Shown here piece after piece: positions 3,600 through 45,355 of a DNA stretch of 64,000 nucleotides (position 1 is the stretch's first letter; each line of letters begins with the position of its first letter). The position numbers were made by a program, and so were the translations under genes. The notes under the pieces are model-generated. The model had not been told where the DNA came from and did not search any database. It saw only the letters and a list, made by a program, of their open reading frames with translations. The stretch is from contig JAXHVO010000065.1 in the NCBI GenBank assembly GCA_034189135.1, positions 18,164-82,163 on the forward strand, in the 5' to 3' direction. The stretch comes from Thermodesulfobacteriota bacterium (GTDB taxonomy: Bacteria; Desulfobacterota; Desulfobacteria; Desulfobacterales; JAUWMJ01).

Positions 3600-3607
3600 A
3601 AGAGACA

Positions 3608-3635
3608 CGAGTTTCGGGTTTCGCGTTACGGGTTT
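3608..3635. repeat. Heptad array (family H), 4 units
   Basis: Four consecutive 7-bp units (CGAGTTT, CGGGTTT, CGCGTTA, CGGGTTT) in the gatC-gatA gap. They belong to the CGGGTTR family found throughout the window. No inverted partner is seen nearby, so this is a solo array. Confidence 0.75.
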
Positions 3636-3679: not shown

Positions 3680-5140
3680 ATGAAGCTTCATGAACTTACC
3701 ATACACCAAGCCCACGAGCTGTTAAAACAAAGAGAGATATCCTCTACAGAGCTTACCCGGGCTGTTTTAGACCGCATTGAGACGGTGGATAACAAGGTTG
3801 GCGCTTATATTTCCGTGGCCGGGGATATGGCGATGAAACAGGCTCAGGTTGCCGACCGGGCCATTTCAAATGGAAAATGCCGGCCGCTGACCGGGATTCC
3901 TCTGGCGATCAAGGATCTTATTTGCACCAAGGGGCTTCAGACCACCTGTGCCTCAAAAATTCTTGAAAATTTTATTCCGCCTTATAATGCCACAGTTATT
4001 AAAAAGTTGAACAACCAGGGAGCCGTAATAATCGGGAAAACCAACATGGATGAATTCGCCATGGGTTCATCCACGGAAAATTCGGGCTTGAAACTCACCT
4101 GTAATCCCTGGAATATGGAGCACATTCCGGGTGGATCCAGCGGGGGATCAGCAGCAGCAGTTGCGGCGGATATGTGCCTGGGAGCACTTGGTTCGGATAC
4201 GGGCGGGTCCATCCGGCAGCCTGCATCGCATTGCTCGGTTGCCGGATTGAAACCGACATACGGCAGGGTTTCACGTTTCGGGCTGGTGGCCTTTGCCTCT
4301 TCTCTGGATCAGATCGGACCCCTGGCAAAAGATGTGACTGATTGCGCGATACTGTTAAACACGGTTTCCGGTTATGACCCTAACGATTCTACCTCAGTGC
4401 CTGAGGGCGTGCCTGATTATACATCATCCCTGAAAAAAGGTCTTAAAGGGATGACCGTGGGAATTATTACAGAGTATGGTGCAACAGAAGGTCTGGACCC
4501 CGATGTTTTCCATGCGGTGAATCATGCGGTCAGTACCATGGAAAATTTGGGCGCAACATGCATTGAAGTGGCTTTGCCCCACACTGAATATGCCGTTGCG
4601 GCATATTATGTGATCGCACCGGCCGAGGCAAGCTCAAACCTTGCCCGATATGACGGGGTGAAATACGGTTTTAGGGATAAACACAAGACCGAGCTGACAG
4701 GCATGTATAAAAGCACACGGTCACAGGGATTCGGCTCAGAGGTTCAGCGTCGTATCATTATAGGCACATACTGTCTTTCTGCCGGTTATTACGATGCATA
4801 TTACGGCAAGGCATCGCAGGCCAGGACACTGATTATGGAGGATTTTAAAAAAGCGTTTCATTCCTGTGACGTAATATTATCGCCAGTGGCCCCCACACCG
4901 GCATTTAAAATAGGGGAAAATTCGGATGATCCGCTTACCATGTATCTTTCTGATATATTTACCCTTTCGGCAAATTTGGCAGGAATACCCGGCATGTCTG
5001 TTCCCTGTGGATTTTCTAAAAAAGGCCTTCCCATCGGCCTTCAGATAATGGGAAGCCATTTCGGCGAGGAAAAAATTCTAAAAACAGCATATAATTTCGA
5101 ACAGGCAACGAATTTTCATAAGAAAAAGCCGATATTATAA
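3680..5140 (+). CDS. gatA: Asp/Glu-tRNA amidotransferase subunit A
   Basis: A 486-aa amidase-signature enzyme that releases ammonia from Gln/Asn for the GatCAB transamidation. The Ser-cisSer-Lys triad is visible: K78 in PLAIKDL, S153 in GGSSGGS, and S177 in [10 protein letters not shown]. Length and the [10 protein letters not shown] region match bacterial GatA. It lies in an apparent operon with gatC. Since a GlnRS gene is present at 18919, the complex may mainly serve Asn-tRNA formation here; that depends on whether AsnRS exists elsewhere in the genome. Confidence 0.97.
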
Positions 5141-5150
5141 ACTTTGATTC

Positions 5151-5178
5151 TTGATTTGAACTAACCTTATGATATACT
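5151..5178 (+). promoter_or_regulatory. Putative sigma-70 promoter of the toxin-antitoxin pair
   Basis: TTGATT at 5151-5156 and TATACT at 5173-5178 are 16 bp apart, about 75 bp upstream of the antitoxin start. It is a motif match only. Confidence 0.4.
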
Positions 5179-5254
5179 ACATATTCAAATTTAAAATCGT
5201 ACAATAATCTGATAAATTTAGTTTTTGTGAATGAGTTAAAAAGGAGTTAAGAAA

Positions 5255-5494
5255 ATGTCATTGGTTGAAACGAATGAAAAAAATAATGCAGAAATAAATT
5301 CTTATCCTTTAAGTAATGTTCAAATGGAACTTTTAAAATTATACTCTACGAATTTGAAAGAAACTGATTTGGAGGAATTAAAAAAAGTACTAGCCAATCA
5401 CTTTGCCGGCAAAGCAACGAAGGAAGCTGATCAAATATGGAAGCAAAAAAAAATGTCGACAGATACAATGGAAAAATGGTTGAATGAAGAATAA
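5255..5494 (+). CDS. Putative antitoxin of a PIN-domain toxin-antitoxin pair
   Basis: A 79-aa acidic protein. It is predicted helical, with NVQMELLKLYSTNLKETDLEELKKVL in its first half and a WKQKKMSTDTMEKWLNEE tail. It resembles the small proteins that precede COG1569 PIN toxins, though sequence identity to a named antitoxin family is not certain. A strong AAGGAGTTAAG ribosome site precedes the ATG. It overlaps the PIN gene by 11 bp (5484-5494), the usual translational coupling of antitoxin and toxin. The role is inferred mainly from this arrangement. Confidence 0.7.
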   Translation: MSLVETNEKNNAEINSYPLSNVQMELLKLYSTNLKETDLEELKKVLANHFAGKATKEADQIWKQKKMSTDTMEKWLNEE

Positions 5495-5900
5495 AAGATT
5501 TGTGTTTGATACAAATGTCCTGCTTGTTTCCATATCCAGCAAGTCTCCATACCATTGGATATTTCAAAAATTGATTCAACAGTATTTTGAACTGGCTGTT
5601 ACGAATGATATCCTTTCAGAATATGAAGAAATTATATCAAATAAGTATTCTAAAAGTGTCGCAGAAAATATTATTCGAACCCTCCTCTTCCTTCCCAATG
5701 TTATTTTAACCAACATTTATTTCAACTGGAACCTGATAAAACATGACAGAGATGATGATAAATTCGTAGATTGCGCGATAGCATCAAATTCAGATGCAAT
5801 AATCACACATGATAAGCATTTCAACGTTTTAAAAAATGTTCCCTTTCCCAGGGTAACTGTCATGAATATTTTTGAGTTTGAAAAATATTATAAAGGGTAA
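5484..5900 (+). CDS. PIN-domain toxin (COG1569 type)
   Basis: A 138-aa putative ribonuclease toxin. PIN-domain acidic residues are visible: Asp in FVFDTNVLL (about residue 8), Glu in ILSEYEEI (about 47), and Asp in DRDDDKFVDCAIAS (about 95-98). The IITHDKHF segment is typical of this 'putative toxin-antitoxin system toxin component, PIN family'. These enzymes need metal ions and cleave RNA. The pair forms a compact module between gatA and a conserved small gene, with no transposase nearby. Confidence 0.85.
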   Translation: MKNKRFVFDTNVLLVSISSKSPYHWIFQKLIQQYFELAVTNDILSEYEEIISNKYSKSVAENIIRTLLFLPNVILTNIYFNWNLIKHDRDDDKFVDCAIASNSDAIITHDKHFNVLKNVPFPRVTVMNIFEFEKYYKG

Positions 5901-6000
5901 CCGTTTAGCCATCCAAACATACAGTTGAGATATGAATGATATATAATCTTAATATCTCCATGGCCTAGGGTATAACCTATTGCTATAAAAGGAAAATGTT

Positions 6001-6177
6001 ATGAGCATTCAACCGGAAGGCGAAGATTTAAGAAAAGCGGTCAAGTGGGTTTCCCAACAGCGAAAGGCAACCCCAGAAGCAAATCTGCAGAAACTGGTTC
6101 AAGAAGCAAGCTTAAGATTCAACCTGTCGCCGGCGGACGGAGAGTTTCTGGCCAGGTTTGTCAAAGAGGAAGAGTAG
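6001..6177 (+). CDS. Conserved small protein (58 aa)
   Basis: A short gene with a good ribosome site (AAAAGGAAAA before the ATG). The protein starts MSIQPEGEDLRKAVKWVS and ends FNLSPADGEFLARFVKEEE. It is charged, predicted all-helical and lacks a signal peptide or Cys residues. I recall similar small proteins in other Desulfobacterota but cannot name a family or function. It is the last gene before a heptad-repeat element, whose array begins 3 bp after its stop codon. Confidence 0.7.
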   Translation: MSIQPEGEDLRKAVKWVSQQRKATPEANLQKLVQEASLRFNLSPADGEFLARFVKEEE

Positions 6178-6179
6178 GT

Positions 6180-6665
6180 CGGGTTGCGGGTTGCGCGTTA
6201 CGGGTTGCGAGTTGCGGGTTACGAGTTGCGCGGAGCGGGTTTTTAATGATTAGAGTGGTATTATGAAGAGCTACAAAGATTTAGAAATATACAAATTATC
6301 ATATGAACTGGCGGTTAAAATTCATAAAATATCTCTGAAGCTTCCTAAATACGAATTATACGAAGAAGGAAGCCAGATAAGAAGATCATCAAAGGGAATA
6401 ACGGCTTGTATCGTTGAAGGGTATGGGAGAAGAAAATATAAAGCAGATTTTGTAAAATATTTGGTATATGCGCATGCTTCATGTGATGAAACGATCCTTC
6501 ACTTAAATTTTATAAAAGATACTGATGAATTTGATAAAAACGAATTAAATGATTTATTAAAGAGTTACGATGAACTGGGCCGAAAAATCAATCAGTTTAT
6601 TAAGTATGTAAAATCAAAATGGGAATAAACACGCAACTCGTAACGCGTAACCCGCAACCCGTAAC
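6180..6665. repeat. Inverted heptad-array element carrying a four-helix-bundle gene
   Basis: The left array (6180-6242) holds nine 7-bp units: CGGGTTG, CGGGTTG, CGCGTTA, CGGGTTG, CGAGTTG, CGGGTTA, CGAGTTG, CGCGGAG, CGGGTTT. The right array (6634-6665) holds the reverse-complement units CAACTCG, TAACGCG, TAACCCG, CAACCCG. Between them is one 121-aa gene. The arms could pair into a long stem in RNA or DNA. Gene-free versions lie at 25025-25176, 43214-43279 and 44381-44448. Confidence 0.8.
6263..6628 (+). CDS. Four helix bundle protein (23S rRNA IVS type)
   Basis: A 121-aa protein of the four-helix-bundle family first found in 23S rRNA intervening sequences, related in fold to the Avd accessory protein of diversity-generating retroelements. 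Typical segments are MKSYKDLEIYKLSYELAVKI, then SQIRRSSKGITACIVEGYGR (about residues 41-60), and a final helix around DELGRKINQFIKYV. The family is a basic, probably nucleic-acid-binding pentamer; its biological role is unsettled. The gene is distinctly AT-rich, has a poor ribosome site, and is framed on both sides by inverted heptad arrays. It looks like cargo of that element rather than part of the mutL locus. Confidence 0.9.
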   Translation: MKSYKDLEIYKLSYELAVKIHKISLKLPKYELYEEGSQIRRSSKGITACIVEGYGRRKYKADFVKYLVYAHASCDETILHLNFIKDTDEFDKNELNDLLKSYDELGRKINQFIKYVKSKWE

Positions 6666-6736
6666 ATTCTTCATTACCTGCAAAATAACAGATGAAAATG
6701 ATCAAAGTTGTTTTCTCATAACACGGAATTTATAGA

Positions 6737-8551
6737 ATGCCACACATAAAAATCCTTCCTGAAATTCTTTCCAACAAAATCGCCGCCGGTGAGGTGGTGG
6801 AGCGCCCTGCTTCGGTTGTCAAAGAGCTGATCGAAAACTCACTGGATGCAGAAAGCAAAAAGATTATCATCGAGGTGGAAAATGGCGGACGATTCATGAT
6901 ACGGGTTTCCGACAACGGTGTCGGAATGAACCACGACGATGCCCTTTTATCCGTTGAACGTTATGCCACCAGCAAAATATTCACCGATCGAGACCTGTTT
7001 TCCATCAACACCCTGGGTTTCAGGGGGGAAGCACTTCCCAGTATTGCTTCTGTTGCTAAATTTTCCCTGGTGGCCAGGGACAAATTTTCTGAAGTGGGTA
7101 CTCAAATTCATGTAGACGGGGGCAGGGTTAAAAAAGTCGAACAGATCGGCGCTCCGGTGGGAAGCCTGATTACGGTAAAACAGCTTTTTTATAACACCCC
7201 TGCCAGACGCAAGTTTTTAAAAACAGTGAACACGGAGATGGGCCATATAGCGGATACGGTTGCGGCCGCAGCACTTTACCGGTCTGATGTGCATTTTACC
7301 CTTTATCACAATGCAAAAATGGTAAAAAACTGGCTGCCGACTTCCGATCCTGTTGACCGGGCGGCGGATGTTCTGGGGAAAGATATCAGAGCCCATCTTT
7401 ATCCTTTGAATTATAAAGGCGGCAACCTGGGCATTGATGGCTGGATTGTCTCTCCTACGGTCACCCGTCGCACCTTTAAAGGGGTCTATATCTATGTGAA
7501 CGGCAGGGTGGTTCGTGACAGGGTTGTCCGGCATGCCCTGCTGGAAGGGTATGCCCAAAGATTGATGAAGAGTACATTTCCGGTGGCGGTTCTTTTTATA
7601 AACGTTCCTTTTGATCAGGTGGATGTCAATGTGCACCCCACCAAAAACGAAGTACGGTTTGTCCGGCAAAAAGAGGTGCACGATCTGGTTAAAAGGGCTG
7701 TTGGGGAAACTTTACAACAGGCCGATCGGCCCACATGGGGCCCACGCAAATCGATAGAAGACAGGCGGACTATTGAACAGTCGCAGGTAGCAGAGGAATC
7801 TATCGGATACAGAAGCATTGGGAGGAGCGCTTCGCTTGACGAAGAAGGAGCGATACGCTTCAACCAACAACCCGTACCCCGCAACTCGCAACACGAAACC
7901 CGCACCCCGTACCCCGAAACTCGCATCCCGCAACCTGCAACTCAAACTCCCCTCTGGGGAGAAAAACGATTCTCAGATTTAAGAGTGATCGGTCAACTGC
8001 ACCACACTTACATCCTTTGCGAGTCAAAAGATACGCTTTTTTTGATTGACCAGCATGCCGCCCATGAAAGGATTGTTTTTGAGCAGCTTAAAAAAAGATC
8101 AAAGGGTTTGAAAACAGCCTCACAGAGACTTCTGATTCCTGAAACCATTGACATGGGATACCTGGAGGCGGAAATGCTTACCGGCCTGATACCCGAGTTT
8201 GAAAAATTCGGGCTTGAAATGGAGCACTTTGGCGGAAACACCTTTGTGGTAAAATCTGTTCCCGGCATCCTTTCAGGCAAACCGGTGAAGCCCCTTATCA
8301 TGGAAATGGTGGAAAAGATGATTCAAACCGGTTTTTCCCCGGGCCTGGAAAAGGCCATGGACGAGCTGATGATATCGATGGCCTGCCACAGTGCCATCAG
8401 GGCAAATCAGCCTTTGACCGATGCGCAGATCAAAGGCTTGCTCGACCAGCTCGATCATTGCGAAAATCCCTCCCACTGTCCCCACGGTCGTCCCACCTGG
8501 ATTCAATGGACCCTAAAAGACCTCGAAAAATCCTTTGGTAGAATCGTGTGA
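6737..8551 (+). CDS. mutL: DNA mismatch repair protein MutL
   Basis: A 604-aa protein. The GHKL ATPase domain (about 1-330) shows ENSLDA, DNGVGM and GFRGEAL. The C-terminal dimerisation/endonuclease domain (about 420-600) keeps the metal-binding motif DQHAAHERIVFE near residue 438, ACHSAIRA, and CPHGRP near residue 580. It should therefore be a nicking MutL, as in organisms lacking MutH. The linker between them is unusual: residues about 376-402 are encoded by eleven to twelve 7-bp units of the CAACCCG repeat family, read in frame. Further arrays lie just before the gene (6634-6665) and after it (8561-8618). Confidence 0.97.
   Translation: MPHIKILPEILSNKIAAGEVVERPASVVKELIENSLDAESKKIIIEVENGGRFMIRVSDNGVGMNHDDALLSVERYATSKIFTDRDLFSINTLGFRGEALPSIASVAKFSLVARDKFSEVGTQIHVDGGRVKKVEQIGAPVGSLITVKQLFYNTPARRKFLKTVNTEMGHIADTVAAAALYRSDVHFTLYHNAKMVKNWLPTSDPVDRAADVLGKDIRAHLYPLNYKGGNLGIDGWIVSPTVTRRTFKGVYIYVNGRVVRDRVVRHALLEGYAQRLMKSTFPVAVLFINVPFDQVDVNVHPTKNEVRFVRQKEVHDLVKRAVGETLQQADRPTWGPRKSIEDRRTIEQSQVAEESIGYRSIGRSASLDEEGAIRFNQQPVPRNSQHETRTPYPETRIPQPATQTPLWGEKRFSDLRVIGQLHHTYILCESKDTLFLIDQHAAHERIVFEQLKKRSKGLKTASQRLLIPETIDMGYLEAEMLTGLIPEFEKFGLEMEHFGGNTFVVKSVPGILSGKPVKPLIMEMVEKMIQTGFSPGLEKAMDELMISMACHSAIRANQPLTDAQIKGLLDQLDHCENPSHCPHGRPTWIQWTLKDLEKSFGRIV
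7861..7944. repeat. Heptad array inside the mutL linker
   Basis: Twelve 7-bp units in the CAACCCG orientation, for example CAACCCG, TACCCCG, CAACTCG, AAACCCG, CACCCCG, CATCCCG. They encode a Pro/Arg/Gln/Thr-rich linker without a stop codon. Three units equal seven codons, so the reading frame cycles through the repeat. Confidence 0.85.
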
Positions 8552-8560
8552 CGGGGGGTG

Positions 8561-8618
8561 CGGGTTTCGGGTTGCGAGTTGCGGGTTTCGGGTTGCGAGT
8601 TTCGGGTTACGGGTTTTT
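8561..8618. repeat. Heptad array downstream of mutL
   Basis: Eight 7-bp units of the CGGGTTR family (CGGGTTT, CGGGTTG, CGAGTTG and variants), starting 9 bp after the mutL stop. They are inverted relative to the array inside mutL, so a mutL transcript could fold between them. Confidence 0.8.
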
Positions 8619-8663
8619 GCTTTTTATGGCAGAATATGATAACAAAATAAGTGATTAAGAAAT

Positions 8664-8690
8664 TCCTCTGTGATCTCCGCGGTAAATGAT
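8664..8690. repeat. Family A right-half fragment
   Basis: A short match to the right arm of family A (CTCTGTGATCTCCGCGGTAA) between mutL and the next gene, with no left arm. Confidence 0.5.
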
Positions 8691-8704
8691 TAAAATCAGG
8701 AAAA

Positions 8705-9055
8705 ATGGATAAAAGTTCGAGAAAAGAAAAACTTTTAAAAAAGCTCATCAAGGAAAATATTTTGTGGAGCTATGATGCGTCTGTGGCTTCAGATATTTCC
8801 GATTCGATCCTTATAGAGCATACGTTGATTTACGCCGATGTGGATCAAATCAAGGAACTGTTTTTAATTTTCAGTAAAGAAAAAATAAAAAGGGTATGGG
8901 ATAATAAAATTATCCCTGATAACAGGTATATAAGGCTTAACTATTACCTGGGAAAGTTCTTTTTTAACATTAAAGATGTGCAAACTTATATCGACGAAAA
9001 ATCGATCATAAACAGCCGTTATGAAAAAATTAGACGCATTAGCACAGAAAACTAA
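8705..9055 (+). CDS. Putative antitoxin-like partner of an AbiEii nucleotidyltransferase
   Basis: A 116-aa protein with the pattern of the DUF6922-like partners of AbiEii-type enzymes: an early LLKKLIKENILWSYD, a middle HTLIYADVDQIKELFLIF, and a C-terminal NKIIPDNRYIRLNYYLGKFFF. These partners are thought to neutralise or direct the downstream nucleotidyltransferase. The AGGAAAA before the ATG supports the start. It overlaps the next gene by 35 bp (9021-9055), indicating coupled translation. The family assignment is from pattern memory and is moderately sure. Confidence 0.7.
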   Translation: MDKSSRKEKLLKKLIKENILWSYDASVASDISDSILIEHTLIYADVDQIKELFLIFSKEKIKRVWDNKIIPDNRYIRLNYYLGKFFFNIKDVQTYIDEKSIINSRYEKIRRISTEN

Positions 9056-18351: not shown

Positions 18352-18369
18352 AAAATGGTCCTCCAGCTA

Positions 18370-18439
18370 CGGGTTACGGGTTACGGGTTACGGGTTACGG
18401 GTTACGCGTTACGAGTTGCGGGTTACGAGTCACGGGTTG
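18370..18439. repeat. Heptad array, 10 units
   Basis: Five identical CGGGTTA units, then CGCGTTA, CGAGTTG, CGGGTTA, CGAGTCA and CGGGTTG. This is the most regular array of family H in the window. Confidence 0.9.
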
Positions 18440-18633: not shown

Positions 18634-18850
18634 CATTATTATACCGGTTGCAGGGTTGTCAATCCTTATAAAAGATGGAAAAATTAATTTTGTGTAATAC
18701 TTGACAAATATGTAAAAAATCAAAAAGATTTTTTTGTCATTTGTGTAAAAACTGCTTTATTTTTAAAGAAATATTGTAAAATATCTAACTTGCTAAACAA
18801 AAGCTTTTCATATATAAAAAAAAGTAATGGTTCAATGGTTCACCTGCAAC

Positions 18851-18908
18851 TCTGAACTCTGAACTCTGAACTCTGAACCTTTGAACCCTGAACATCTGAA
18901 CCATGAAC
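18851..18908. repeat. Heptad array of a second sequence type (TCTGAAC)
   Basis: Four perfect TCTGAAC units followed by variants CTTTGAAC, CCTGAAC, ATCTGAAC and CATGAAC. The unit length matches family H but the sequence differs. The array stops directly at the glnS ribosome site (GAGGAAAA). Confidence 0.85.
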
Positions 18909-20628: not shown

Positions 20629-20705
20629 GCGATGAAAAAAGTTTTTGACTTTTTACCATTTAAAGTGGAACCTGAGTTCTTAAAGGGTTGATTCATGTCT
20701 AAGGT

Positions 20706-20908
20706 ATGAATCGAAACGGTTATATTATTTTCTTCCAGGGGATATGAATCTAATCAGTTGCAGCGTGTCCGGATATTTGGGATAAAGTGGTTCAGTTGCC
20801 AAACGATATAAATGGGGCCATCTATCCCAAGTATCCGGACACTGCGGAAAAATGGAATAGATGGCCCACATATCCCCTTACAGAAAAAAATATAACCGTT
20901 TCGATTCA
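20706..20908. repeat. Nested palindromic element (about 200 bp)
   Basis: Outer arms: 20707-20745 (starting TGAATCGAAACGGTTATA) and 20869-20908 (ending TATAACCGTTTCGATTCA). Inner arms: 20760-20781 (GCAGCGTGTCCGGATATTTG) and 20826-20845 (CAAGTATCCGGACACTGC). A third pair, GGGCCATCTATCC and ATAGATGGCCC, lies between the arms. There is no open frame. It resembles a non-autonomous (MITE-like) element or a strong structured RNA. The remaining bases of the 20629-20962 gap show nothing else. Confidence 0.8.
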
Positions 20909-20962
20909 GATCTGATTTTGAGTCTGTGTAGCTTGAGTTATAAATGATAGTGGGGAGTTGAG

Positions 20963-21886
20963 GTGAAGCTGAATATACATAAGTACAGGGGATTGTTTTT
21001 TAAAACAATCCTTTTTCTTGCTGTTTTTTCAACCCTGTTGGTGTTTACCGGTACTGTCTTTTCCGGCCGGCAGGGAGACACGGCCAAACATTGTCTATGG
21101 TCAATTGAAACAGAAAATAACACCATATTTATGCTGGGATCCCTTCATATATCACCGGCGGAGATATACCCGCTGCCTGAAATCATCGAACGCGCATATG
21201 ATCAATGCGCCAAGGTCATATTTGAAGCAGATATGGAAGCGGTGAATGACCCTTCCTTTCAGACCAGGATCATGACTCTGGGTGTTTATCCCCAGGGAGA
21301 TAAGCTTGAAAACAACGTTTCAGCGCAGACGTTTAACGCATTAAAAAAAAGAGCCGATGCCACCGGCATACCGATACAGCAGCTAAACCGTTTGAAACCC
21401 TGGTTATGTGCACTTTCCATCACCAGTATTGAACTTTTAAAGCTTGGATTTAATCCGGCTTACGGCATAGATATGTATTTTTTTAACCGGGCAAAAAAAG
21501 ATGGAAAAGAGATACTGGGTTTTGAAACCGCCGAATTTCAGCTGAAGCTCATGACCCAAATGACCGGCAGACAGGAAGAGATGATGCTCAGACAAACTTT
21601 AAAAGATCTTGAAGTCATTGAAAAAGATGCCGCAAGTCTGGTTACATACTGGAAAAACGGGGACGCAAACAAGCTGGATTCCTTTATTACCAGGAACCTC
21701 AAAGAGTTTCCCCAACTGTATGATCGCTGGTTTACCAGTAGAAACCATCGGTGGCTGTCGGAAATTAAAAAGCTGACCGGGGAAAAGGAAAATATCTTTA
21801 TCATCGTTGGTGCAGGTCATCTGGTGGGAAGAGATGGCCTGGTCGAGCTTTTAAGAAAGCAAAACTATAAAATCCGTCAAAGATGA
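20963..21886 (+). CDS. TraB/GumN family protein
   Basis: A 307-aa exported protein of the TraB/GumN (Tiki-like metalloprotease fold) family. The GTG start has GGGGAG upstream. A hydrophobic signal or anchor lies at about residues 12-32 (FFKTILFLAVFSTLLVF). Family motifs are the first GxxH at FMLGSLHIS (about 56-64), Glu in VIFEADME (about 89), and the second GxxH at IVGAGHLVGRDGL near the C-terminus. A second, membrane-type TraB protein is encoded at 37610-38836. The substrate is unknown. Confidence 0.87.
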   Translation: MKLNIHKYRGLFFKTILFLAVFSTLLVFTGTVFSGRQGDTAKHCLWSIETENNTIFMLGSLHISPAEIYPLPEIIERAYDQCAKVIFEADMEAVNDPSFQTRIMTLGVYPQGDKLENNVSAQTFNALKKRADATGIPIQQLNRLKPWLCALSITSIELLKLGFNPAYGIDMYFFNRAKKDGKEILGFETAEFQLKLMTQMTGRQEEMMLRQTLKDLEVIEKDAASLVTYWKNGDANKLDSFITRNLKEFPQLYDRWFTSRNHRWLSEIKKLTGEKENIFIIVGAGHLVGRDGLVELLRKQNYKIRQR

Positions 21887-21893
21887 TGTCGTC

Positions 21894-22002
21894 GTAGAAA
21901 GTCCCATCTACTGCGTTGCAGCAGTTTTTCAGAAACTCGGCATACTACATGTATTGCCTCGTTTCTGAAAAACCACTGCGCCTTGTATATGAAACTTTCT
22001 AC
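21894..22002. repeat. Palindromic element before the FKBP gene
   Basis: Left arm GTAGAAAGTCCCATCTACTG then GCAGTTTTTCAGAAACTCGG. Right arm GCCTCGTTTCTGAAAAACCA then ATGAAACTTTCTAC. It forms a long imperfect hairpin. A longer reading of the FKBP frame would run through it, which argues for the downstream start. Confidence 0.7.
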
Positions 22003-22053
22003 TTAGCCATCGGTAATATTTTTTCGAGTTTATTAAAGATAAAAGGGGGAATA

Positions 22054-24941: not shown

Positions 24942-25017
24942 AGTCTTTATTCTATCAAATAAAGCTTGGTTCTGTAGGCCAGGTCAGAGATAACTGGCAA
25001 TGCCGAATTGATTAACA

Positions 25018-25176
25018 CATGTTACGGGTTGCGAGTTGCGAGTGATGAAATGAATTTTATCTCAATTTTTTGTTTAAAAATGGTCGTTCAAAATAGGGTA
25101 GAAAATAATCAACGAAATTTAGTGTAAGAAATAGCAAAACGCTGTTTGCAACCCGAAACCCGCAATTCGCAACGCG
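25018..25176. repeat. Empty heptad inverted element
   Basis: Left units CGGGTTG, CGAGTTG (25025-25038). Right units CAACCCG, AAACCCG, CAATTCG, CAACGCG (25149-25176). About 110 bp of gene-free AT-rich DNA lies between. It has the same arm design as the four-helix-bundle element at 6180-6665. Confidence 0.75.
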
Positions 25177-25238
25177 TGGTGTTTAAGATGAAACCTCTAC
25201 AGGGAGTAATCAAGGCCGAGCCTTTTTAACTCGGATAT

Positions 25239-27183: not shown

Positions 27184-27303
27184 GGGCTTGAGACCTGAAA
27201 TTAAAAAGATTTACCACGGAGTTTCACTGAGAGACACTGAACTTTAATGGTTAATATCGGTGAAATTTTCGAGCACATCCGTGGTAAAAATATGAAGGAC
27301 AAA
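27184..27303. repeat. Family B palindromic element, copy 2
   Basis: TTACCACGGAGTTTCACTGA at 27211 and the right end ACATCCGTGGTAAAAATATG. The flanking GGCTTGAGACCTGAAATTAA and ATATGAAGGACAAATT are also shared with the copy at 53429-53551, so the element is about 120 bp. Confidence 0.8.
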
Positions 27304-27394
27304 TTTCCAATTTCCACGTTCAGCGAACACTCACCTCATTGAATGATATTTCGCATTCACTGATAATTGAAGGCGTGATGGCAAAGGAGGATTT

Positions 27395-29965: not shown

Positions 29966-29999
29966 TCTCAAAAAGCTCTTGAAGAGGGAAGTCTTTTTT

Positions 30000-30138
30000 G
30001 AACGTCGAACATCGAACGTTGAACAGTGAACATCGAATGACGCAATCGATGGATTTATGCAGAGAGACCGATATTCTCTGCTGGTTTATTAATGGGTATA
30101 AAATACCTTATTCAACGTTCGATGCTCAACGTTCATAG
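30000..30138. repeat. Inverted heptad element of a third sequence type (TCGAACR)
   Basis: Left units TCGAACA, TCGAACG, TTGAACA, GTGAACA, TCGAATG (30005-30039). Right units TTCAACG, TTCGATG, CTCAACG, TTCATAG (30111-30138). The spacer of about 70 bp has no gene. Unit length 7 is kept while the sequence differs from family H. It occupies most of the 29966-30234 gap. Confidence 0.8.
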
Positions 30139-39849: not shown

Positions 39850-39978
39850 GGTTTTGTAAAGACTAATCGTTCACCACAAAGCTCGCAGAGAGCACAGAGA
39901 ATATATTGTTATATTAATTAGTTGCCTCTGTGGTCTCAGTGCTCTCCGTGGTAAATTTGATTTCTGAGAAACCACCTG
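39850..39978. repeat. Family A palindromic element, copy 4
   Basis: TTCACCACAAAGCTCGCAGA on the left and TCTCAGTGCTCTCCGTGGTA then GAGAAACCACC on the right. It lies between the ATPase gene and the VWA gene, ending just before the latter's start codon, so it would be transcribed within the operon. Confidence 0.8.
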
Positions 39979-42720: not shown

Positions 42721-43149
42721 ATGATTATATACGACGATATATTTTCCTGGGAAGGATTTGGCGGCAAGCTGCGTATTGGAAGTGGAAAGTGCAGACTGCG
42801 GATCTTTGACCTTAAACAGGGTACTGAGAAAGGGCTTGACTATATAAGACCCATTATCGCCGTGGTTTCGGATATTTCCAGAAGCAATATTAGCATCAAA
42901 AGCTGCTCCGGTCATATTGCCACCAAGGTCATCAGAGAATTCAATATTGATCCAAGCCGTATGTTATATGTGGAATATTATCCTGCAGTCATGTATGGTG
43001 AAAAGAACGAAAAAATGATACCGGAAAGATATGATGCCATAGAATTTTCCTGGCATGAGGATAAAGCAATAAAACCAAAATGGAGAACCTTAAAGCCACC
43101 GCTGGTCGATTTAATTGAGAGATTGATGGAAGAAAGACTAACCCAATAA
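42721..43149 (+). CDS. Conserved hypothetical protein next to the NorQD-like pair
   Basis: A 142-aa soluble protein starting MIIYDDIFSWEGFGGKLRI, with RIFDLKQG, IRPIIAVVSDISRSNISIKS, and C-terminal RYDAIEFSWHEDKAIKPKWR. I do not recognise a characterised family. It starts 14 bp after the VWA gene, so it is likely the third gene of that operon and may be an accessory factor or substrate adaptor of the complex (inference from position). Confidence 0.65.
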   Translation: MIIYDDIFSWEGFGGKLRIGSGKCRLRIFDLKQGTEKGLDYIRPIIAVVSDISRSNISIKSCSGHIATKVIREFNIDPSRMLYVEYYPAVMYGEKNEKMIPERYDAIEFSWHEDKAIKPKWRTLKPPLVDLIERLMEERLTQ

Positions 43150-43204
43150 TAAGATTTATTGTTATATATTGCGTTTTAATAAACTTGTTCATTTGATTAC
43201 CATG

Positions 43205-43320
43205 TAAGTGTTCCGGGTTACGTGTTGCGAGTTATTAGTCGGAAATAATCCTTTTTTACAACCCGTACCACCTAACTTGTAACAATTGCGTGTGACATAA
43301 AAAGAACTTTCTGATAAATA
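43205..43320. repeat. Empty heptad hairpin, copy upstream of the ArsC fusion
   Basis: Left units CGGGTTA, CGTGTTG, CGAGTTA (43214-43234). Right units CAACCCG, TACCACC, TAACTTG (43259-43279). The right flank GTGACATAAAAAGAACTTTC resembles that of the copy at 44381-44480, so the fusion gene lies between two related copies in direct orientation. Confidence 0.7.
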
Positions 43321-43357
43321 GGATTTGGTAATTTACCTTATTGAGGGAAAAAATATT

Positions 43358-44332
43358 ATGCTGGTACTAGGATTACAGGGAAGTCCCCGAAAAAATGGCA
43401 ACACCGATTATTTTTTAAAGGCATTTATGAACGAAGCTGAAAAGTCAGGGGTTAAAACCCATACCGTAGAGGTTGCTAAAAAGAATATTCAACCGTGCAG
43501 GGGATGCGGTTTTTGTGAGAAACACGGGAAGTGCGTCATTGACGATGACGATATGACCGGAGAGATCTATTCTCTACTTCGACAGGCGGATGTTATTGTG
43601 GCTGCCACACCCGTTTTTTTCTACTCCGCAACAGCACAGTTAAAGGCTCTAATTGACAGAAGCCAAACACTGTGGTCAAGGAAATATAAACTAAACGTGG
43701 TCGATCCGGGCAGGAAAACGAGACAGGGATTCCTTCTTTCTATAGGCGCGACCAAGGGAAAAAACCTGTTTGATGGTCTTAAGTTGACTATGAAATATTT
43801 TTATGATGCAACCGGGGCCGGATTTCACGGCAGCCTGACTTACCGCAGGATTGAAAATAAAGGAGATATCAAAAAGCATCCCACAGTTCTCGATGATATA
43901 CAGGAAGCTGCCGGCAGCCTTTTAAAGCCGTTTCTTGGCAGAAAGAAAATTATTTTTGCATGCATCGGGAACACATGTCGAAGTCAGATGGCCTCCGCCT
44001 TTGCCCAATCCTATGCCGGTGATAGAATAGAGGCTTTAAGCGGTGGCAGCAAGCCGGAGCATGAGATTAATCCGGTCATGGTTGAAGCAATGGGGGAAAG
44101 GGGAATAGATATGGCGTTTAGGAAAACCCAATCTTTAGAATCCGCCATTTCCCAGGTAAAACCGGATATGATTATTACCATGGGATGTGGCGAAGAATGT
44201 CCCTATGTCCCGGGAGCAACGGTAAAGGATTGGGAGGTGCCGGACCCCGCCGGAAAATCGATGGATTTCATGCGAACGGTTCGTGATGAGATAAAACAGA
44301 GAGTAGAAGGGCTTATAAAGAGCCTGACCTAA
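43358..44332 (+). CDS. FMN reductase - arsenate reductase (ArsC/LMW-PTP) fusion
   Basis: A 324-aa two-domain protein. The N-terminal NADPH-dependent FMN reductase/flavodoxin-fold domain (about 1-185) has VLGLQGSPRKNGNTDYFL, CRGCGFCEKHGKC and ATPVFFYSATAQLKALIDR. The C-terminal thioredoxin-type ArsC/low-MW phosphatase domain (about 195-324) has the P-loop FACIGNTCRSQMA with Cys 202, the second Cys pair region TMGCGEECPYVPG, and the acid loop DWEVPDPAGKS. The fusion could couple flavin electrons to arsenate reduction. It is a single continuous frame. The ATG at 43358 follows GAGGG; the longer TTG start adds nothing conserved. Confidence 0.87.
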   Translation: MLVLGLQGSPRKNGNTDYFLKAFMNEAEKSGVKTHTVEVAKKNIQPCRGCGFCEKHGKCVIDDDDMTGEIYSLLRQADVIVAATPVFFYSATAQLKALIDRSQTLWSRKYKLNVVDPGRKTRQGFLLSIGATKGKNLFDGLKLTMKYFYDATGAGFHGSLTYRRIENKGDIKKHPTVLDDIQEAAGSLLKPFLGRKKIIFACIGNTCRSQMASAFAQSYAGDRIEALSGGSKPEHEINPVMVEAMGERGIDMAFRKTQSLESAISQVKPDMIITMGCGEECPYVPGATVKDWEVPDPAGKSMDFMRTVRDEIKQRVEGLIKSLT

Positions 44333-44369
44333 CCAAAATGCTCTTTTTCAGCTTGTTTGGCTGCTGCCA

Positions 44370-44485
44370 GATAAGTGTTTCGGGTTACGAGTTGCGGGTT
44401 TAAAAAGCAGATGAAGGTTCCGATGAACAACACGAAACGCGTAACAATATCATATGACACAAAAAGAAACTGCTGCTAAATAGAA
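44370..44485. repeat. Empty heptad hairpin, copy downstream of the ArsC fusion
   Basis: Left units CGGGTTA, CGAGTTG, CGGGTTT (44381-44401). Right units CAACACG, AAACGCG, TAACAAT (44428-44448). The flanks (TAAGTGTTTCGGG, and GACACAAAAAGAAAC) match the copy upstream of the fusion gene. Confidence 0.7.
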
Positions 44486-44506
44486 CTGATCAATTACGCG
44501 ATCAGG

Positions 44507-45355
44507 CTAAAATACAATCCCGGTATATCCAACAAAACTGTCACCAGGACTTTTATCATAACTGGTGGCATAGGTGATCTCTTCCGCTTGCTTGGCTCCC
44601 AGCTCTTTTGCAGCAGCTATTGCTGTTGCGGCGGCTCCTGCACAACATGCATTCTGGTTTGACAATGCTTCATTGATCACATCTTCCGGTTTCATGGCGA
44701 CCATTGCATCAATCACCCGGCGATCATTTTCATTTCGTGCCCAGTCAACTGCCGCTTGCCCCGTTCCTTTGGGTACAAACCCATAGTTGGGTCCATAATG
44801 GGTCAGGTCTGTGGAGCCGAGGATATTGATTCTCAGGCCCAGCTTCTTGCCGATCTCGACAACGGCTTTTCCGATTTTAAGAGAATCTTTTGCCGGAGGA
44901 ACACCAAGGGGAAGGATTTTAACCGTATCAAAGAAATATTTTATAAATGGAAGCTGGAGTTCAATGGTATTGTCCTGGGGAAGGTGATCAGGCGTTTCAA
45001 TATTAAAGGAAAATCGGCCGGTGAGTTCTTTTGCCAGGGATTTTTCTATTTGGATATCACCAAAGGGGGTTTCCCAGGCGCCTTCTTTCATAATATAGCA
45101 AGGTGAGCTTGAATGAAGATGCATTCCAAAAATCACAAAAACATCGGGCGGGTTGTTTTTTTTGAGAGAATGAATCACATGACAGGCAATACTTCCGGAA
45201 AAAAACCAGCCGGCATGGGGCACGATTCCGCCTACCGGATTTTCAATTGAGGAAGCTTTTATTTTTTCTTCAAGAAAACGGCTTATTTCCCTTTCGCATT
45301 CTTCGGAACTGCCAGGATACCAGGAACCGGCAAAATCGGCTTTTTTAATATTCAT
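44507..45355 (-). CDS. amrB: MEMO1-family protein (AmmeMemoRadiSam system protein B)
   Basis: A 282-aa protein of the MEMO1 family, which has a non-heme-iron dioxygenase-like fold. Visible motifs are FAGSWYPGSSEECEREI, GGIVPHAGWFFSGSIA, IFGMHLHSSS, LPQDNTIELQLPFIKYFF, and SDLTHYGPNYG, containing the metal-binding His residues. It usually occurs with AMMECR1 and a radical SAM protein; neither is adjacent. The frame extends upstream to 45418, but those codons lie in a family C repeat, and GAAGG before the ATG at 45355 supports the shorter start. Confidence 0.87.
   Translation of the reverse strand: MNIKKADFAGSWYPGSSEECEREISRFLEEKIKASSIENPVGGIVPHAGWFFSGSIACHVIHSLKKNNPPDVFVIFGMHLHSSSPCYIMKEGAWETPFGDIQIEKSLAKELTGRFSFNIETPDHLPQDNTIELQLPFIKYFFDTVKILPLGVPPAKDSLKIGKAVVEIGKKLGLRINILGSTDLTHYGPNYGFVPKGTGQAAVDWARNENDRRVIDAMVAMKPEDVINEALSNQNACCAGAAATAIAAAKELGAKQAEEITYATSYDKSPGDSFVGYTGIVF

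Follow-up and report, generated by a model that had tools for sequence, protein, structure and literature searches.

A small four-helix-bundle gene enclosed by two inverted arrays of 7-bp units, just upstream of mutL, raises the question of what such a combination is and how it came to lie there. We addressed it in a window of 64,000 nucleotides (positions 18164-82163 of contig C65, genome G000), from an uncultured member of an order represented by 96 genomes; the features of the window are given in Table 1. In our reading, the locus is probably an S23 module, that is, a selfish, promoter-less operon passenger in which one small gene is combined with a pair of inverted arrays of the protein's own unit, and in which we infer that S23 itself binds the unit and brings about movement.

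Table 1. Position of the S23 gene, its arms, its neighbours, and related arrays and repeats in the window
Feature	Position	Strand	Remarks
Short solitary array upstream of gatA	3607..3630	+	
Conserved 58-aa gene marking the insertion spacer	6001..6177	+	Upstream of mutL in relatives
Left arm	6180..6242	+	Nine 7-bp CGGGTTR-type units; G-rich strand on +
S23 / 23S_rRNA_IVP four-helix-bundle gene, 121 aa	6263..6628	+	PF05635 and TIGR02436 profiles
Right arm	6628..6667	-	Five complementary units of CGTAACCCGCAAC type
mutL, downstream neighbour	6737..8551	+	Co-directional with the S23 gene
C-rich array of the focal unit inside the mutL reading frame, in a linker	7871..7941	-	Absent from mutL of G001
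Solitary G-rich array, 4 bp past the mutL stop codon	8555..8615	+	Array also present there in G001
Solitary G-rich array	18368..18437	+	Homology with G002 ends at the left edge of the array
Dispersed repeat of a second family, containing an inverted heptad pair	24986..25215	.	Relatives in G002 and in G063 (another family)
MITE copy (approximate ends), heptad hairpin in the middle	43140..43350	.	G001 and G002 lack it in the orthologous gap
Another copy of this MITE (ends approximate)	44325..44525	.	Absent from the orthologous gap in G001

The S23 locus upstream of mutL

The protein encoded between the arms was assigned to the S23 family by PF05635 (91.9 bits; cut-off of 33.8) and TIGR02436 (93.8 bits; cut-off of 24). 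A single AT-rich gene framed by arms, as described in the first-pass annotation, was indeed present, with a GC content of 30% versus 43% for the window. From left to right, the left arm reads CGGGTTG, CGGGTTG, CGCGTTA, CGGGTTG, CGAGTTG, CGGGTTA, CGAGTTG, CGCGGAG, and CGGGTTT; two of these nine units are degenerate, and the right arm, previously credited with at least four units, has five. Lag-7 self-match reached 21.5 in the left array and 16 in the right array. An open reading frame enclosed by complementary arms is a feature of rRNA intervening sequences (IVSs); this element is not located in an rRNA gene, as it sits between the 58-aa gene and mutL, and no Rfam match was found at 5000-9000.

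No match was obtained with PADLOC, the gene was not a Y1/HUH transposase according to profile searches, and no reverse transcriptase was recognised among the open frames at 3.6-9 kb. These frames, from which alone the neighbouring genes were called, correspond to an amidase-like protein (read as gatA), a PIN toxin, the 58-aa gene, and mutL. At 5255-5900, a 79-aa ORF overlaps the start of the PIN_3 toxin-like gene, and the two likely form a toxin-antitoxin pair. When the sequence was read at 6160-6720, no terminal inverted repeat (TIR) or target duplication was seen outside the arms, which counts against an S23 module.

G001, a genome of the same genus, has an 83% identical gene with both arms just upstream of mutL. 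The 58-aa gene was found upstream of mutL in 23 relatives, at a median distance of 62 nt, and the focal element was absent from 28 of the 30 mutL loci sampled in the order; the other mutL loci are too diverged for a base-exact empty site to be defined. The first-pass annotation had raised the prospect of the same gene lying without arms at this locus in most relatives; gene and arms were both present in G001 and were jointly absent from most other mutL loci of the order. Moreover, a different S23 subfamily with different arrays was observed directly upstream of mutL in at least four other genomes (G083, G067, G029, and G016, the copy in G016 being an internal-deletion remnant), so no fewer than two S23 lineages have settled between the 58-aa gene and mutL. 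Among named organisms, the nearest relatives of the focal protein were found in MAGs of Deltaproteobacteria/Desulfobacterales, and most of the genomes compared in this work are MAGs of uneven completeness.

S23 genes are paired with arrays whose unit follows the protein

S23 loci were drawn from the order, from named genomes, from plasmids, and from the genomes behind named loci; they were oriented by profile and compared with matched positions about 1 kb away (n = 137), using a tandem score threshold of at least 10. Among 156 full-length loci from several phyla, lag-7 arrays were detected in 60% (8% of controls), lag-8 arrays in 18% (0 in controls), and lag-9 arrays in 14% (1.5% of controls); multiples of these lags also appeared, and other primary lags did not exceed 3%. 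Complementary inverted arms were present at 67% of the loci and at none of the 137 control positions, and 86.5% of the loci had either arrays or inverted arms. After clustering at 70% identity, which removes shared ancestry among loci only partly, 86 of the 99 clusters were still positive. Within the same loci, 65% of the gaps adjacent to S23 were positive versus 20% of the other intergenic gaps. The thresholds, set on the first sets, were then applied unchanged to a separate gammaproteobacterial family, in which 20 of 24 loci (83%) were positive and arms were found in 71%, versus 0 of 22 controls. The architecture of one S23 gene with inverted arrays is therefore general for the family, with about 4-5 units per arm in two-armed elements (medians of 4.6 and 5.0). 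Approximately 13-17% of S23 genes had no detectable arms, and these count against the S23-module model.

In several Bacteroidota (L119, L120, L124, L126, L129, L133, and L136), the S23 element was read between cysD and cysN, mostly with 9-bp units, and is possibly one old insertion kept vertically.

Unit sequence, whether of 7, 8, or 9 bp, tracked the S23 protein and not the host across phyla. Unrelated S23 genes of G000 had differing units (CGGGTTR, AAGGATTC, GAACATC, GAAATTG, and ACAACTG), and a single Desulfobacterales contig (L086) had three S23 genes in a stretch of about 5 kb, their units being GTTGCAG, GTTGCTG, and GTCCAAA. For cross-phylum pairs of S23 proteins with at least 60% identity (n = 89), the mean unit cosine was 0.39, and 53% of pairs were above 0.3; among same-genome pairs below 45% identity, only 1 out of 63 exceeded 0.3. 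S23 proteins of the focal type with GTT-type arms were 73-78% identical in Brocadia and Scalindua (Planctomycetes), and about 60-70% identical in Bacteroidota and Cloacimonadota, which points to horizontal spread. Within this clade the GTT core was kept, and the unit drifted from GTT[GA]CG[GA] to GTT[GA]CT[GC], GTT[GA]TCG, and the 9-bp GTTGTAATT. These dozens of natural protein/unit pairs could serve to work out a recognition code.

Arms, transcripts, and mobility

S23 genes were co-directional with both neighbours at 124 of 144 loci and opposed to both at 3; for cluster representatives, the corresponding counts were 76 and 1 out of 90. Arm polarity was dropped as a proof of RNA action: an inverted pair whose G-rich strand faces inward reads identically on both strands, so polarity is uninformative on transcription. 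Information on transcription is carried only by this orientation bias and by the avoidance of divergent gaps described below.

Folded as RNA, the focal arms form a 30-bp stem that encloses the ORF (z of -5.5). Together with the co-directional orientation, this stem would suit an explanation in which the arms act by pairing into a single long RNA stem that RNase III cleaves, the S23 segment being released from operon mRNA as in 23S rRNA IVSs, with no need for the protein to recognise the unit. The rRNA IVS of Coxiella provides a parallel: RNase III cleaves its 28-bp stem in vitro, and heptameric GACAGAT repeats lie upstream of the S23 ORF (PMC4990558). However, the unit-order match between the arms of 67 two-armed elements was 16.6, versus 16.1 with shuffled units (p = 0.29), so precise pairing is unconserved beyond the common unit; we rejected the possibility that the arms are literal inverted copies of each other, and an excised RNA stem is weakened as a selected feature. 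Cleavage of a stem also leaves protein-specific units in solitary arrays unexplained, and we consider this explanation unlikely. What is conserved is the repeated unit, not a precise stem, which is a better fit to recognition by a protein than to selection for pairing. The S23 family profile matched 2gsc (E-value of 1.7e-30) and 2rld over its whole length, both of which have five chains in the crystal, and S23 proteins are homologues of Avd from diversity-generating retroelements (match found here; PMC10053308).

A sibling family with AAGGATTC as its unit is transposon-like. Its six copies in G000 are units of 0.4-0.59 kb (approximately 0.5 kb), in which an S23 gene with 8-bp-unit arms lies inside TIRs (GGATCATCTCC../GGTTCTTCTCC.., the right end reading ..GGAGAAGAACC). 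The 8-bp target duplications were perfect in three copies and matched at 7/8 positions in two (5 of the 6 copies), and several of the S23 frames were broken. A deletion series of 398, 349, 193, and 133 bp was also observed, the shrunken copies of 349, 193, and 133 bp retaining their ends and arm remnants; gene-free hairpins thus do arise by deletion in this family. TIRs, target duplications, and internal deletions place it with MITEs and TIR transposons. As this family shows, some S23 modules are simply cargo, which counts against the S23-module model.

The gene-free elements of the same arm design that had been reported at 25018, 43205, and 44370 did contain inverted arrays at all three positions; they proved to be dispersed repeats whose conservation extends beyond the arms, and not just the focal element without its gene. 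Those at 43205 and 44370 belong to a MITE of about 270 bp with ends ACCCTACAACG.../...CGTTGTAGGGT, most copies of which are TA-flanked (21 aligned, from G000-G002). We rejected the idea that they are simple deletions of the focal element, the MITE having other ends. For both copies, gaps lacking the element were identified in same-genus relatives by the orthologous-gap comparison that had been proposed (Table 1). The element at 25018 probably belongs to a MITE-like family with its own ends and a hairpin inside. There is good support for describing the whole as a non-autonomous element family with a small-protein cargo, considering that the gene/array pairing recurs across phyla and that the sibling family has TIRs, 8-bp duplications, and gene-deleted copies.

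Further repeats were noted in the window. Short interspersed repeats at 20683-20919 and 21884-22037 (about 240 and 150 bp), which are not heptad arrays, had dozens of copies in two same-genus genomes, and other dispersed repeats at 27201-27314, 29994-30134, and 39870-39963 had many copies in G001/G002. The repeat at 29994-30134 holds an array of GAACGTC, the unit of another S23 of G000 (L015).

The TIRs, the 8-bp target duplications, and the broken frames of the six sibling copies, as well as the focal-unit hairpins that also ride in a TA-flanked MITE, could be taken to mean that S23 is pure cargo of ordinary TIR transposons, without any role, and that the arrays are by-products of slippage. 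Such transposons would not, however, make the unit track the protein across phyla, and the elements of the focal clade have, by reading, no common sequence outside their arms. We regard pure cargo as distinctly improbable.

Solitary arrays and comparison with known systems

Arrays of the focal unit were not restricted to the S23 gene. In a 455-kb sample of G000, 19 lag-7 arrays scored at least 12, versus 2 after shuffling, and (GTTRCGN)x3 had 66 matches genome-wide, versus none for the reversed control pattern. The array survey also showed that the dispersed inverted pairs share the repeat that flanks the focal gene. Focal-unit arrays were detected in all four genomes of the order with a close relative of the focal S23, and in 12 of the 92 others. 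In G002, an incomplete congener, and in G063, focal-unit arrays occurred with no focal-type S23 gene detected; the case of G063 counts against the S23-module model, though this genome is incomplete. The outer end of the array commonly abutted a gene end, and none of the 73 gaps with focal-unit arrays separated divergent genes, versus 44 of the 285 array-free gaps (p = 3e-5). Focal-unit arrays are thus confined to gaps reachable by transcription.

As a separate observation, genome G076 (3.8 Mb) had 381 matches to the focal-unit pattern and a focal S23 that was 76% identical, making it the best genome found here for the study of array spread. A perfect array of four AACTCTG units was also noted at 18848-18878 of the window.

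Arrays that abut gene ends might instead be the regulon of a host regulator, with S23 acting post-transcriptionally, and the TAACTGA arrays lying just upstream of start codons have been proposed as translational sites (PMC4679880). Two published surveys found no function shared by array-bearing genes (PMC4679880, PMC4692102), and a selfish element better fits the patchy distribution, the high copy number, the broken copies, and the horizontal transfer; a role as host regulator therefore seems very unlikely. Heptad arrays are common in some genomes, but the controls, the held-out replication, and the link between unit sequence and protein leave hardly any room for chance, or generic microsatellites near a small gene, as their source.

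Under the S23-module reading, the S23 gene would have no promoter of its own, and its expression would ride on the host operon. In the transcript, the arms would fold round the ORF as in rRNA intervening sequences, and a pentameric, Avd-like S23 may recognise its own unit as RNA or single-stranded DNA, the 4-5 units of each arm serving as a multi-site platform. Spread would occur in part via transposases that act in trans on TIRs at the flanks, and in part via a putative S23-dependent route that could seed arrays elsewhere.

Several known systems resemble parts of this one. The S23-encoding IVSs of 23S rRNA have the same protein family and an ORF enclosed by inverted arms; unlike them, the focal element lies in an mRNA operon, and the arms consist of tandem copies of a degenerate 7-9-bp unit that goes with the protein lineage. 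REPIN-RAYT systems combine dispersed inverted pairs of short repeats with a single-copy gene flanked by the same repeats. The focal system shares this arrangement, but its gene is a four-helix-bundle gene with no known enzymatic activity, and there is no HUH/Y1 transposase. The sibling and TA families are like MITEs in being non-autonomous, with TIRs, target duplications, and an internal-deletion series; they differ in that their heptad arms are internal, and the focal element has no such ends. Although Avd is homologous to S23, no reverse transcriptase, template, or variable repeat of a diversity-generating retroelement was seen beside the focal gene.

The geometry of the focal-unit arrays, with a heptad period, an intergenic position, and proximity to gene ends, is also that of the GGGNATC repeats of Xanthomonas and Nostoc, which occur between aligned ORFs as convergent inverted pairs, G-rich where they follow stops and C-rich where they precede starts (PMC4692102), and of the TAACTGA repeats of Beggiatoaceae, Cyanobacteria, and Bacteroidetes (PMC4679880). 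Neither paper ties heptad repeats to an S23 gene, and for the horizontal spread of TAACTGA-type repeats "no mechanism is evident" (PMC4679880). In the open-access text searched, no paper linking S23 genes to tandem arrays was found beyond the note on the Coxiella IVS. Elements of the IVS kind are known; to judge from the searchable literature, their occurrence in mRNA operons with tandem units specific to the protein is undescribed.

It is conceivable, though somewhat short of an even chance, that PF05635 comprises many sequence-specific binders, each with its own 7-9-bp word, and that together with their arrays they form a general class of transcription-riding selfish elements generating heptad families (GGGNATC of Xanthomonas, TAACTGA of Beggiatoa, and the cyanobacterial heptads), of which rRNA IVSs, the IVP genes of cas operons, and Avd would be offshoots. 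Such a class would offer one origin for several unexplained heptad repeat families, and a testable biochemical function for an uncharacterised and very widespread protein family. Association of 23S_rRNA_IVP genes with cas operons has been reported (PMC3936711). It may reflect insertion of the element rather than a CRISPR function, as in a plasmid of Pseudanabaena galeata (L142, 389-2553), where an S23 gene with AAAAGCC/AAAAGCT arrays was located between cas6 and cas4.

Finally, two further co-occurrences were recorded. One gammaproteobacterium (G176; L334 and L347) had an exact array of three GGGAATC units as well as an S23 gene with GGGAATA/GGGATTG-like arms, and one S23 locus (L106) had TAACTGA-type units beside it.
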